A stretch of DNA of 20,746 bases, taken from positions 1 through 20,746 of IMG/VR virus record IMGVR_UViG_3300025769_009985, one strand, 5' to 3'. The position numbers and the translations under genes are program-made. Shown here in pieces: positions 4,273 to 19,767 of the stretch (position 1 is its first letter; each line of letters begins with the position of its first letter). The notes under the pieces were generated by a model. The model worked only from the letters and a program-made list of their open reading frames with translations, had not been told where the DNA came from and did no database searches. Source of the stretch: a virus.

Positions 4273-5219
4273 AGAAAGCCGTTACAGGTCAAGACTACAC
4301 TTTTACATGGAACAGCGCGGCCCCTGTGAGCGGCACGCCTAGCGTAACTTTTAAAGCGTCTAGCACAGTCACTAGTAATCTTACACACTCACGCGCAGAT
4401 ATTAGCGTAACTGCATTAGCTAATGATAGGCGTACACTCACTATAGCTAGTAGTGCTAGTCTAGAACGTGATCAAGAGCTATGCTTTTTAAAGACAGATG
4501 GGGACGCTTGGTATAGTGTAAAAGTAGTAAGGATAGTGGGCACTACAGCTTTATTAGCTGAGCCCCTCCCTCGTGAGATAGACTTATCTAGTGCAGCCTC
4601 ATTAGAGTTTTCTACTTGGTATGTGACAGCATCATCTAGTAATGTTACTAGTGCAAGCGGGACATATCAATATGAGATAAGTTACATAGTAGACTATGGA
4701 CAGAATACACAAAACAAACTAGACAAGGGTGTAATTAAAGTTACCCCGCGACCTTTTGACACTGGCTTAGATCATGAATCATTAGTGAATAAATTTGCTT
4801 CACTTGCTGACTTAGTGCCCAGGCGTCAAAGTGATTTTAGCCCACAGATTAAAGCGGCTTTAGATGAGCTATCTTTAATGCTTAGAAATAGGCTTATAGA
4901 TTCTGATGTCACAGAAGATGAAATCTTTAACGCTACTGACTTTGAGCTATGCCACGCATACTGCACAGCGGCACGTATCTATGAGATGAATTTACAGCTT
5001 GACGCCGCAGACGCCATGCGGGCACGTTGCATGGAATTGCTAGACCTGGCGCTTAGGACTGTAGACTTAGATCTAGATGGTGATGGGGTACTAGATGAGG
5101 GTGAGCTTAATCTAGAAAAGTCAGGCGGCAAGAGTACAGACTTTAGAGCGTCATGGCGTACTTATAATAAATCTACTTATGATGCTACCTTTAACCCCGC
5201 TAGGGGCATGAGGCACTAG
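4269..5219 (+). CDS. Head-tail connector candidate with EF-hand loop
   Basis: A 316-residue protein that starts in an ATGA overlap with the minor head gene. Residues 1 to about 160 are beta-rich with Ser/Thr-rich strands. Residues about 165-255 are helical (SDVTEDEIFNATDFELCHAY and the following helices), resembling the helical-bundle head-completion or adaptor proteins that dock under the portal. A canonical 12-residue EF-hand loop follows: DLDGDGVLDEGE (5070-5105, residues 268-279), with Asp at positions 1, 3 and 5, Gly at 6, Leu at 8 and Glu at 12. The loop should bind calcium. Position between the capsid genes and tail-completion genes supports a connector role, but I do not recognise the family, and a fused beta domain of this size is unusual for a small adaptor. 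Confidence 0.55.
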   Translation: MKKAVTGQDYTFTWNSAAPVSGTPSVTFKASSTVTSNLTHSRADISVTALANDRRTLTIASSASLERDQELCFLKTDGDAWYSVKVVRIVGTTALLAEPLPREIDLSSAASLEFSTWYVTASSSNVTSASGTYQYEISYIVDYGQNTQNKLDKGVIKVTPRPFDTGLDHESLVNKFASLADLVPRRQSDFSPQIKAALDELSLMLRNRLIDSDVTEDEIFNATDFELCHAYCTAARIYEMNLQLDAADAMRARCMELLDLALRTVDLDLDGDGVLDEGELNLEKSGGKSTDFRASWRTYNKSTYDATFNPARGMRH

Positions 5220-6225: not shown

Positions 6226-7524
6226 ATGAGCGTAACACATAGAACATTAGGCGTAGCTGAAGAAACTACTTTCGGCTCGCTATCACCTACTACTAATTTA
6301 CCTATCCCTGCGGCTAGTTATGTTTCTATACCTTGCGAGATGGACCCCATTCTTATTTATGGTGAGCCTGTGGCTAGTGAGCGCAATGATGCTAGAGATG
6401 GTAATTACTTTAACCAACCTGAGCCTGACACTGTATATAACTCAAGTGGTGATAGAGTGCGCCGCCGTACGGGTCAAGTACAGTTAAGAGTAGACTTAAC
6501 CACCATAGGCACCGCGGCTAATGATTATGACTCTAACTATTTAGGTTACCTCTTAAATGGTGGCTTTTTAAATAGAGCTAGTGGCGTAACATCTGCGACA
6601 GTAGCAACCATCACAGACGTTAACAGCTTTACAGTATCAAGTGGCGGCCCTACTGCTAGTGACGTGGGTACACTCATTAGTACCATTCTCAACGGTAAAG
6701 TAGAGTACTCAGCTATCACAGATGATAGTGACGCATCTAGTGACATTACAGTTAGCCCCGCTTTTAGCGCAGGCTTTACAGGTACCCCCACCATTAGAGG
6801 TACACAAACATACTACTTAGGTAGCCGCACATTTACAGGCACATATACTAATTCACTTACTTTTAGAGTGGATGGCGTAAACTTTAGAAGCTATGCCTAT
6901 GGCTGTGTGCTTGAATCTTTAGCTATTAGCTTAGATAATGGGCGCTTGATGGGTGACTTTACTTATCAGTCTGCTTGTATTCAAGATGATCATGGTAGCG
7001 CAGTGGGGCCTATTGAGCCACTCTATAATACAGGTGCACCCCCATTCTTTAGAAATAGCTATGTGGTAGTCTCAGACGCTGCCCCCTCATCTCGCGTAAA
7101 TGCTACCACAGGTGACAAGCTAGGGCGTATTGAGTTAGATTGTGAAGACTTTAGTTTAACAGTGACTAATACATTAACACCACTGGGCACTAGTGAGAGC
7201 ATTCTAGCTATGTCAAACATGGACATTAGCGGAGTAGATGTAGAGTTAAGCCTTACACTATCCACTGTTAATACTACTATCGCTAACGATTATTTCAATA
7301 AAACCTTGCGTCAAGTGTTAGTAGGTACAGGACCTAGTGGAGATGGGCAGGGTTGCGCTATTATGTTACCCGCTGCCATGCTTACTAATGACCCTAGTGC
7401 CTATGATGTAAGCGGCAACGATATTGTTAGACAAACACTTACATATAAACAAGCACGTTACGCAGGTGATGTATCTGAAGTTAACGCAGCTAACTCACCC
7501 TTTAGATTAGCACTAGGTATTTAA
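6226..7524 (+). CDS. Major tail (tube) protein
   Basis: A 432-residue beta-rich protein directly before the tail chaperone, the conserved place of the tube protein. GGAG upstream provides a Shine-Dalgarno. The N-terminus (TLGVAEETTFGSL...) and the strand LTFRVDGVNFRSYAYGCVLESLAI, followed by a 'MGDFTYQ' strand and later paired strands, resemble long tube proteins built from two tube-like halves. An inserted Ser/Thr/Gly-rich beta module lies at about 6580-6810. At 432 residues it is larger than a simple tube subunit (about 150-250 residues), consistent with a two-domain tube subunit or added surface domain. It forms the hexameric rings of the tail tube. Confidence 0.7.
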   Translation: MSVTHRTLGVAEETTFGSLSPTTNLPIPAASYVSIPCEMDPILIYGEPVASERNDARDGNYFNQPEPDTVYNSSGDRVRRRTGQVQLRVDLTTIGTAANDYDSNYLGYLLNGGFLNRASGVTSATVATITDVNSFTVSSGGPTASDVGTLISTILNGKVEYSAITDDSDASSDITVSPAFSAGFTGTPTIRGTQTYYLGSRTFTGTYTNSLTFRVDGVNFRSYAYGCVLESLAISLDNGRLMGDFTYQSACIQDDHGSAVGPIEPLYNTGAPPFFRNSYVVVSDAAPSSRVNATTGDKLGRIELDCEDFSLTVTNTLTPLGTSESILAMSNMDISGVDVELSLTLSTVNTTIANDYFNKTLRQVLVGTGPSGDGQGCAIMLPAAMLTNDPSAYDVSGNDIVRQTLTYKQARYAGDVSEVNAANSPFRLALGI

Positions 7525-7525
7525 T

Positions 7526-8035
7526 ATGGCTCTTCACTTCTCTACGTCTACTAATGATCATTTTACTATAGTTGTTACTTGTGATTCTGCGGTTAACTTT
7601 ACAGATGAAAGTAAAGCGGAATACTTTAATACAGGTGACTTATCACTATTAGATGTAGGTGAAGATGCTACGCGCTTTACATTAAAACCCCTAGGGCCAC
7701 AGGATAGAGAACGCGCAGAGATTAGAGCGGGTGCCTTTACTCGCAGTGAGCTAGGGAAGTTACTGTGGGCTGAGTCTCCTAATGACACGCGGGCGCATGC
7801 GCGGTGGCATCATGCACTAACAGAGGATGAGAGAGAAGCTTTAGCTAGTTATGAAGCTTATATATCTAAGTCTTATATAGAGTATGTGAGGGAGTCACTT
7901 ATTAGTATAAATGATGAGCCCGCTACTATGGACATGATAGACTCTATTAGGCCAGAGCATATGCGTATCACCACTATCACTGAAATAGTGCTACATCTGC
8001 AAAGAGTGAGCTTACTAGGTGACGTGGGAAAATAG
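7526..8035 (+). CDS. Tail assembly chaperone, short form (lambda gpG-like)
   Basis: A 169-residue protein encoded between the tube and tape measure genes, the fixed position of tail assembly chaperones in long-tailed phages. The N-terminal part is beta/charged (TLKPLGPQDRERAEIR) and the rest is helical (ALTEDEREALASYEAYISKS), as in other chaperones of this class, which coat the tape measure and recruit tube subunits but are absent from the virion. The last codons are GAC GTG GGA AAA TAG, so the stop comes immediately after a G_GGA_AAA slippery heptamer. Sequence similarity to lambda gpG cannot be claimed; the role follows from position plus the frameshift arrangement. Confidence 0.75.
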   Translation: MALHFSTSTNDHFTIVVTCDSAVNFTDESKAEYFNTGDLSLLDVGEDATRFTLKPLGPQDRERAEIRAGAFTRSELGKLLWAESPNDTRAHARWHHALTEDEREALASYEAYISKSYIEYVRESLISINDEPATMDMIDSIRPEHMRITTITEIVLHLQRVSLLGDVGK

Positions 8036-8448
8036 CACTCGCCTCTGCCATATGGATACCGTTTAGTAATAGCAGGGGCTGGGATTGTGAGCAGTGTAAA
8101 AAGAGCCCAAGCATTAGGCGCCTGCGGGGTAATTGTGGGGGCACGTTTAAAAAAGGCCTGCCTCAGGCTCTAGAGGATGAGCACGGCTTATATATGCCAG
8201 GCTATAGAATAGCGCCTAACAGTGGTGAAGCTTATAGTGATCTTAAAATTAGATCATGCCCTATAAGTAACATGAATAGACTAGCTTTGATAGTAAGCAA
8301 TTACTCTAAAATAAAAAACAAGCTTTTATCATTTAGTGAACTATACCCCCATCCCACATGCGCTATAGTTGAAAGCATAGAAATTTTAGACTATAATCAT
8401 GAACAAATGAATTATAGAAGACATGCGCAAGCTTTACAGGAGTCTTAA
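7526..8448 (+). CDS. Tail assembly chaperone, -1 frameshift long form (GT-like)
   Basis: A predicted fusion made by -1 ribosomal slippage at 8026-8032: codons 1-169 of the short form continue at 8032 in the -1 frame for 138 more codons to TAA 8446-8448, giving about 307 residues. The -1 frame has a stop at 8020-8022, just upstream of the slippery site, and is then open to 8448. It has no ATG, GTG or TTG before 8194, so slippage is the natural way to enter it. The extension starts IALASAIWIPFSNSRGWDCE and contains a CxxC plus two further Cys (codons 8086, 8095, 8134, 8257), a possible metal site. In lambda the T part of GT binds the tube protein; the same role is inferred. It ends 1 base before the tape measure ATG. 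Confidence 0.8.
8026..8032 (+). promoter_or_regulatory. -1 programmed ribosomal frameshift slippery site GGGAAAA
   Basis: G_GGA_AAA fits X_XXY_YYZ in the zero frame (GGA 8027-8029, AAA 8030-8032). Both tRNAs can re-pair on GGG AAA. The stop TAG follows directly (8033-8035), a common slippage enhancer. The lambda G/GT site is the closely similar GGGAAAG, in the same gene context. Confidence 0.85.
8041..8079 (+). promoter_or_regulatory. Candidate frameshift-stimulating stem-loop
   Basis: GCCTCTGC (8041-8048) can pair with GCAGGGGC (8072-8079) to give an 8-bp stem with a single U-G wobble and a 23-base loop. It begins 8 bases after the slippery heptamer, the usual spacing for a -1 stimulator. 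Stability was not computed and the loop is large, so its effect is uncertain. Confidence 0.5.
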
Positions 8449-17898: not shown

Positions 17899-19767
17899 AT
17901 GGCTATTAAATTTGATACGTTTAAAACTGGCGGGGGCTCAGCACCTACAGGGGGCTTAGTCTATAAGGGGCCATATAATGCAACCACGCAGAGCCCTAAC
18001 TTGACCTCATCTTTAAAAGGTGATTTCTATATTGTAGATGTAGAAGGAACACTAGCAGGCGTACAGCTTAATGTAGGTGATCATATAGTGTTTAGTCAAA
18101 ATGCGTCTAGCCCCATCACTAGTGCTATGTTTGATGTGATTGATAATACGGATGCGGTAGCTAGTGTGAATTCCCAAACTGGCGTAGTAGTATTAGATAG
18201 TGACAATATAGCAGAGGGCTCCACTAATCAATACTTCACGTCTGCGCGTTTTACTTCTGAGTTTAATACTAAGGATAGTGATGATTTAACAGAGGGCTCT
18301 ACTAATTTATTTTATACAGATGCGAGATTTGATACACAGCTAGGCACTAAGACTACTACAGATTTAGCAGAGGGGTCTAACTTATATCACACTAATGCTA
18401 GAGTAGATGCGCGTATAGCTGCGGCCACTGCTAATGATTTAAGTGATGTAAGCTACACAGCGGGTGCGCCCATTGATGGCTATGTACTAAAGTATAATAA
18501 CACAAGTGGAAACTGGGAAGCTGCGGCGGAAGCTGCGGGCGCAGTGGGTACACTACAGCAAGTGACAGACCAGGGCGCTACTACTACCACTAATATTAGT
18601 ACAGCTCAGATAACTTTAGGGGGTGACCTCTTAGCAGATGGTGTATTGACCCGCACTATAGGTGATGAGACTAATAGATTTATTACATCTTATAGTGATC
18701 TAAATGGGGCTGTTAGATTCAAAGCTAAAGCAGGTGTGGCACTATCTAAAGGTGATGTAGTCTATATTAGCGGTGTTAGTGGTGGCGTGCCCACTGTACT
18801 TAAAGCGCAAGCTAATAGCGCAAGCACTATGCCCGCTTTTGGCTTATGCTATGCTAGTGCCTCACTAAATGCAGATGTGCAAATAGTCACATTAGGTAAT
18901 TTAGATGGCATTAACACGGGATCATTTAGCTTAGGTGATACGCTATACGTAAGTGAAACCACTGCGGGCGCGCTCACTAACTCAGCGCCTACAGGTGAAA
19001 GTAACTTAATACAGAATATTGCTAAAATCATTAAAGTGGATGGCACGGGTAATAGTGGCATTTATAAAGTAGGTGGTGCAGGTCGCACAGCGGCTACCCC
19101 TAACTTAGATAGTAATAAAATCTTTTTAGGTAATGGCTCTAATCAAGCTGTGAGTACTGCATTATCAAGCGTTAATCTGAGCTCATTTAATCAAGATCTG
19201 ACTACTGATAATGTAAGTGAAGCATCTAATCTATACTATACTAATGCGAGATTTGACACCCAGCTAGGCACTAAGACTACTACAGATTTAACAGAGGGTA
19301 GTAACTTATATCACACTAATGCAAGAGTAGACGCACGTATAGCACTAGCTACTGCTAATGACTTAAGTGATGTGTCTTATACTGCGGGTGCCCCTATAGA
19401 TGGTCAAGTATTAACTTATGTACATGCCAATAATAGATGGGAAGCGCAAGCGGCTAGCGGGGGCGGGGGCGGTGGCTTTACTTATGATGGCACGCAAGGG
19501 GCGGCTTCATTTAATGCAGTGCTTAGCTATCACTATGCAGTTAACACAAGTGGCGCAAGTGGTAATATTACTATGACATTACCCGCAGCATCCAGTGGAG
19601 GCAGTGAGATTAGAGTAAAGCTTTTAGATGCTACACACTCTGTTATTGTAGCTGTGCAAACAGGCGAGACGCTAGACACTACCACTAATGGGACTACTAC
19701 TTTAAGTGTAGCTAATCAATCCATTACTCTTGTAGACAATGGTAGCACAGGGTGGGAGATTGTATAA
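17899..19767 (+). CDS. Tail fibre protein with EGSxNLYxTxAR repeats
   Basis: A 622-residue protein built of short modules. Five copies of a 25-26-residue unit with the core EGS(T)N(L/Q)(Y/F)(Y/F/H)T(N/D/S)AR are visible. Three are in tandem (18211-18441) and two follow a separate domain (19216-19365). Units 3 and 5 each lead into DLSDVSYTAGAPIDG. Between the blocks lies a beta domain (about 18709-19080, KGDVVYISGVSGGVP to GDTLYVSETTAGALT). The C-terminus (about 19455-19767) begins with a Gly-rich hinge, then a compact beta domain. Such repeats form trimeric fibre shafts in aquatic phages; the end probably attaches to a tip. The N-terminus (KFDTFKTGGGSAPTG) likely docks to the tail. Confidence 0.75.
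   Translation: MAIKFDTFKTGGGSAPTGGLVYKGPYNATTQSPNLTSSLKGDFYIVDVEGTLAGVQLNVGDHIVFSQNASSPITSAMFDVIDNTDAVASVNSQTGVVVLDSDNIAEGSTNQYFTSARFTSEFNTKDSDDLTEGSTNLFYTDARFDTQLGTKTTTDLAEGSNLYHTNARVDARIAAATANDLSDVSYTAGAPIDGYVLKYNNTSGNWEAAAEAAGAVGTLQQVTDQGATTTTNISTAQITLGGDLLADGVLTRTIGDETNRFITSYSDLNGAVRFKAKAGVALSKGDVVYISGVSGGVPTVLKAQANSASTMPAFGLCYASASLNADVQIVTLGNLDGINTGSFSLGDTLYVSETTAGALTNSAPTGESNLIQNIAKIIKVDGTGNSGIYKVGGAGRTAATPNLDSNKIFLGNGSNQAVSTALSSVNLSSFNQDLTTDNVSEASNLYYTNARFDTQLGTKTTTDLTEGSNLYHTNARVDARIALATANDLSDVSYTAGAPIDGQVLTYVHANNRWEAQAASGGGGGGFTYDGTQGAASFNAVLSYHYAVNTSGASGNITMTLPAASSGGSEIRVKLLDATHSVIVAVQTGETLDTTTNGTTTLSVANQSITLVDNGSTGWEIV
18321..18480 (+). repeat. Direct repeat copy A in tail fibre gene
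   Basis: This 160-base segment recurs at 19245-19404, offset by 924 bases (308 codons), in the same frame and without gaps. I count about 25 mismatches by hand, roughly 84% identity. It spans parts of fibre repeat units 2 and 3 and the following DLSDVSYTAGAPIDG segment. Several blocks of 10-20 bases are identical. Confidence 0.85.
19245..19404 (+). repeat. Direct repeat copy B in tail fibre gene
   Basis: Second copy of the 160-base direct repeat that starts at 18321. It covers most of fibre repeat units 4 and 5. The two copies flank a separate beta domain, so recombination between them could delete or duplicate that domain without breaking the frame. Confidence 0.85.

Follow-up and report, generated by a model that had tools for sequence, protein, structure and literature searches.

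A conserved slippery heptamer, abutting stop codon and covarying hairpin point to a frameshifted two-form tail assembly chaperone in uncultured phages

Results and discussion

Organization of the locus

The window, i.e. the whole stretch of 20,746 nucleotides that was analysed (IMG/VR virus record IMGVR_UViG_3300025769_009985, positions 1 to 20,746), contains on its plus strand, as for the other features of the locus, a gene for a putative short, G-like tail assembly chaperone at 7526-8035 (169 codons; ATG 7526 to TAG 8033-8035). The 3' end of this frame-0 gene reads GTG GGA AAA TAG. It holds the slippery heptamer G_GGA_AAA (GGGAAAA, 8026-8032) in the X_XXY_YYZ register of the 0 frame, and the UAG stop (8033-8035) follows immediately as the intercodon. 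A TGA at 8020-8022 closes the -1 frame just 5' of the heptamer; from 8023 onward this frame has no stop until the TAA at 8446-8448. Post-slip codons start at ATA 8032, and the T-like extension (8032-8448) comprises 138 codons followed by the TAA. An earlier note on the window had proposed a programmed -1 frameshift from the in-frame heptamer before TAG, the closure at 8020-8022 with 138 open codons to 8448, and the lack of any ATG, GTG or TTG in the -1 frame before 8194; all of these were confirmed with their coordinates. The predicted fusion has 169 + 138 = 307 residues with the junction ...LLGDVGK-IALASA..., and its junction peptide is expected to contain LLGDVGKIALASAIW.

The earliest start codon of the -1 frame, at 8194, opens a mechanical ORF of 84 residues, separated from the 0-frame stop by 158 nt (8036-8193). 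The computed gap agrees with the prediction that a conventional gene caller would leave a 158-base gap plus a spurious 84-residue ORF, which also fits an 84-residue protein present in BFVD.

The gene had further been placed between tube and tape measure genes. The tape measure part of this claim stands: the gene at 8450-10537 matches phrog_1538 'tail length tape measure' in four of eight relatives (best E 5.5e-9; the window's own match has E=0.015). The tube part depends on one weak match, since the conserved tail gene at 6226-7524, proposed from its position to encode the tube, matches phrog_290 'minor tail protein' in one relative (1.4e-5) and nothing otherwise.

Among approximately 6,670 codons, the window has 16 in-frame XXXYYYZ heptamers, of which a single one abuts a stop codon; GGGAAARTAG is found once against 0.07 expected from shuffles. 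Taken alone, a heptamer next to a stop in a single genome would be suggestive only, and a single contig also leaves room for a sequencing error or for gene decay through a frameshift mutation.

Conservation of the junction among relatives

Relatives were collected from IMG/VR, part of them with the frame-0 protein alone and hence blind to the heptamer and the extension, and the 147 unique frame-0 genes were grouped for profile analysis into 91 clusters below 90% nucleotide identity, here called lineages. The relatives retrieved by the frame-0 protein alone gave the same heptamer/extension picture. INPHARED contained no relative of the chaperone, the extension or the upstream gene, and the GTDB genomes contained no relative of the extension.

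The two-form coding architecture was kept across the 91 lineages. In every one of them the extension lies in the -1 phase, and stop readthrough was rejected on this ground. The extension is uninterrupted for 138-148 codons in all 85 lineages that are not cut by a contig end, and no -1 frame stop was found in relatives between the positions equivalent to 8032 and 8194, where the earlier note had regarded such stops as evidence against its reading. A canonical slippery heptamer is present at the junction in 90 of the 91 lineages, being GGGAAAR (GGGAAAA or GGGAAAG) in 88 and AAAAAAC or AAAAAAT in two; the remaining lineage (L113/L236) has A_GCA_AAG instead, in which A_AAG is still able to slip. 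Since it is kept in 90 of 91 lineages, the junction arrangement is far beyond chance. The same arrangement in 91 lineages, together with the purifying selection at the junction described below, refutes a sequencing error or gene decay, the probability of which we consider negligible.

Among the 90 lineages with a slippery heptamer, the 0-frame stop abuts the heptamer in 83, follows 6 nt later in six, and is preceded by an earlier nonsense codon in one. It is mostly TAG, with some TGA or TAA. The one with the earlier nonsense codon is L115, a GGGAAAR lineage, in which this codon is located near 4487, shortly 5' of an intact GGGAAAATAG; it reflects a sequencing error, or else the gene is broken.

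In two divergent lineages the residues G-K are replaced by K-N via A_AAA_AAC or A_AAA_AAT, so that slipperiness is kept with changed amino acids. These two, L170 and L008/L248, are the most divergent relatives; in place of GGGAAAR they have about ten consecutive A followed by C or T and then TAG, and transcriptional slippage is also possible there. Extending this explanation to the whole group, with the polymerase rather than the ribosome joining the frames, appears most improbable: the window and 88 lineages carry just GGGAAAR, a run too short for polymerase slippage, and a downstream hairpin sits at the spacing typical of -1 programmed ribosomal frameshifting (PRF).

Upstream of the heptamer, the -1 frame is open for merely 0-3 nt in 68 of 90 lineages and offers a start codon in one of 90. 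The extension might nevertheless be a separate gene with its own start, either at ATG 8194 or by reinitiation at the stop. Such a reading would account for the ATG-started 84-residue ORF and for the public 84-residue viral protein that resembles it, and lineages with GGGAAAATGA do have a -1 frame ATG overlapping the stop (L129 4001-4507, and similarly L130, L133, L136, L141, L149, L150 and L151). In these GGGAAAATGA relatives a free extension protein could arise in addition, by termination-reinitiation. On the other hand, the distance to the first start in the frame varies between 6 and 297 nt among relatives, whereas homology, with invariant Trp and Cys residues, begins at the heptamer, and a separate gene would leave both the fixed heptamer and the hairpin unexplained. 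ATG 8194 indeed has no well-placed Shine-Dalgarno sequence, as the earlier note had argued, but this was a weak point of its case, because some genes of the window also lack a GGAG/AGGAG-like sequence, though most have it. The stronger argument is that the extension has no conserved start in the relatives, the first one varying over the 6-297 nt given above. We therefore regard a separate gene as very unlikely.

Constraint on the heptamer codons

Synonymous divergence was calculated from codon alignments of 90 lineages relative to expectation. Both coding parts are near saturation (about 0.95 along the gene, mostly 0.85-1.0), in contrast to 0.01, 0.00 and 0.14 of expectation at codons 167, 168 and 169. 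In the GGGAAAR lineages codon 167 specifies E, S, Q, A, R, V or L, yet its third base is invariably G, and codon 168 is GGA without exception, although GGA makes up 18% of the Gly codons elsewhere in the gene. Constraint on the 0-frame protein cannot explain these fixed codons, and -1 frame translation across them is not expected because that frame is closed 0-3 nt upstream in the 68 lineages mentioned above. The alignment of relatives, which had been suggested as a check of the frameshift, thus revealed conservation of both the heptamer and the open -1 frame, for the heptamer beyond what the protein demands.

A sequence complementary to the 3' end of 16S rRNA, AGGTG/GGTGA (8017-8022 in the window), lies 3-4 nt 5' of the heptamer in about half of the lineages, and Gly at codon 165 is enriched for GGT (65 of 79 Gly codons, versus 41% elsewhere). 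Shine-Dalgarno-like -1 stimulators usually act at a spacing of 9-14 nt; as the spacing here differs, we do not claim this sequence as a frameshift stimulator.

A covarying hairpin downstream of the heptamer

A hairpin, which had not been mentioned in the earlier note, was identified by covariation and recovered unprompted by RNAalifold. Its 5' arm (GCCTCTGC, 8041-8048) starts 8 nt after the heptamer and pairs with a 3' arm at 8072-8079 (GCAGGGGC). The position of the 5' arm is fixed, whereas three registers, offset by 3 nt, are seen for the 3' arm. Inside each register group 92-98% of cells are paired, a percentage favoured by the assignment of registers by best pairing. The covariation score was reached by none of 500 shuffles, and all slid controls were lower. 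When the same best-pairing search was performed at control positions of the same extensions, the median stem score was 22.4 for the hairpin versus 11.0 for the control, and the hairpin exceeded the control 95th percentile in 83% of 90 lineages. The spacing of 8 nt lies in the 5-9 nt range of downstream stimulatory structures in -1 PRF signals, and a stimulatory role is predicted.

Folded alone, the window RNA downstream of the heptamer was not unusually stable (z -0.26), the energy of a single sequence being uninformative. No obvious stem was seen at the hairpin position in the divergent L008, and no known RNA family was matched in Rfam.

Identity of the two proteins

Neither protein piece gave a convincing HMM match in Pfam, PHROGs or NCBIfam, TAC families included, and hhalign against lambda G and T detected no similarity in sequence. 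The AlphaFold model of the frame-0 protein is mostly helical (pLDDT 89). None of its fold matches reaches significance by E-value (best BFVD E 3.8e-3), but the functional names among the top 50 in BFVD are mostly 'Tail assembly chaperone' (E from 9.6e-3 upward) and include both the short and the long chaperones of Arthrobacter phage Molivia. In the PDB list HK97 gp13 (2ob9) appears with E=2.7 and TMt 0.38, and YqbN with E 7.6.

The extension contains four invariant cysteines (residues 21, 24, 37 and 78, numbered from the GGG codon; 88-90 of 88-90), and this part is possibly zinc-binding. Its only significant fold match is the unnamed 84-residue viral protein in BFVD, with 46% identity.

The missing family match and the marginal fold similarity would also be consistent with genuine recoding of some other two-form tail protein that is not a chaperone. 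This seems unlikely, as the gene is found directly before the tape measure gene, has the two-form architecture, and gives named fold matches enriched for 'Tail assembly chaperone'. The earlier claim of a two-form tail assembly chaperone made by -1 frameshifting is supported, its chaperone part by position, recoding and fold matches below significance.

Comparison with known systems and proposed mechanism

In phage lambda, G and GT are made by -1 frameshifting at G_GGA_AAG (Xu, Hendrix and Duda; reviewed in PMC5009743). The present locus resembles G/GT in its place before the tape measure gene, in its short and frameshift-extended products (here predicted), in the G_GGA_AA[A/G] heptamer, with three lineages carrying lambda's own GGGAAAG, and in the size of the extension (138 residues, compared with about 144 in lambda). 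It differs in that the proteins have no detectable sequence similarity and in that the 0-frame stop, located 15 nt after the heptamer in lambda, is abutting here; in addition, the present locus has a demonstrated covarying hairpin 8 nt after the heptamer, and the extension has four invariant cysteines. Architecture and genomic neighbourhood are likewise shared with P2 gpE/E+E' and HK97 gp13/gp14, both annotated -1 frameshifts, although P2 uses a T_TTT_TTG heptamer with the stop 18 nt downstream, and HK97 gp13 (2ob9), compared by fold only, was a weak match to the frame-0 model with a score that is not significant.

Mean heptamer-stop distances of 26 and 36 nt were reported for two phage sets with PRFect (PMC10885494). 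A stop directly after the heptamer is known from Rous sarcoma virus and barley yellow dwarf virus (PMC4373837), which share the order of heptamer, intercodon stop and downstream structure; these are, however, eukaryotic viruses expressing polymerases, in contrast to the tail gene of a bacterial virus studied here. Our comparison of the stop-adjacent layout covers lambda, P2 and the PRFect means, and we do not claim that it is unprecedented in phages.

The heptamer, the open -1 frame, the conserved covarying hairpin, the lack of an independent start and the gene order can all be read from the nucleotide sequences, and programmed -1 frameshifting very probably produces a G/GT-type pair of 169 and 307 residues. 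We infer that slippage occurs, as well as the ratio of the products, the chaperone role and the metal binding. The majority of ribosomes would stop at UAG 8033 and release the 169-residue G-like protein. A minority would be paused by the hairpin 8 nt downstream, possibly also by the stop codon, and tRNAGly and tRNALys would slip from GGA-AAA to GGG-AAA, after which the slipped ribosomes would read on in the -1 frame to give the 307-residue GT-like fusion. By analogy with lambda, the G-like and GT-like proteins may coat the tape measure protein encoded directly downstream, and the T part with its four cysteines may recruit tail tube subunits.

The mechanism as such is already known; the variants here are a slip site that the stop abuts in nearly every lineage, and a "T" part with four cysteines. 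If the reading is right, the lambda-type two-form tail chaperone extends, on sequence alone, to a large group of uncultured phages without protein similarity to that of lambda and with no named relatives in Pfam, PHROGs or INPHARED. The group offers a clean, evolutionarily sampled -1 signal, with a fixed heptamer, an abutting stop and a hairpin that covaries in three registers. In many viral contigs this gene is probably split by ORF callers.

A more tentative suggestion, which we consider doubtful, is that the stop abutting the slip site is itself functional, so that a release factor (RF1 at UAG, RF2 at UGA) competes with -1 slippage while the stop occupies the A site. Release-factor supply, in addition to the hairpin, would in that case determine the short-to-long chaperone ratio, and the site would represent a natural bacterial stop-intercodon -1 frameshift. 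In bacteria such competition was demonstrated only for an engineered HIV-1 site with an adjoining stop, where release factor modulated slippage (PMC4373837, citing earlier work). The stop-adjacent layout provides a natural bacterial test case for competition between release factor and -1 slippage.

Other genes of the window

Two further genes of the window deserve mention. At 2-1927 a Mu-like I protease/scaffold (PF10123) is located behind a long N-terminal region that resembles phrog_2859 (unknown function), an unusual-looking fusion. The structural protein encoded at 17899-19767 contains recurring ATANDLSDVSYTAGAPIDG-type segments and matches phrog_32934 and phrog_697.
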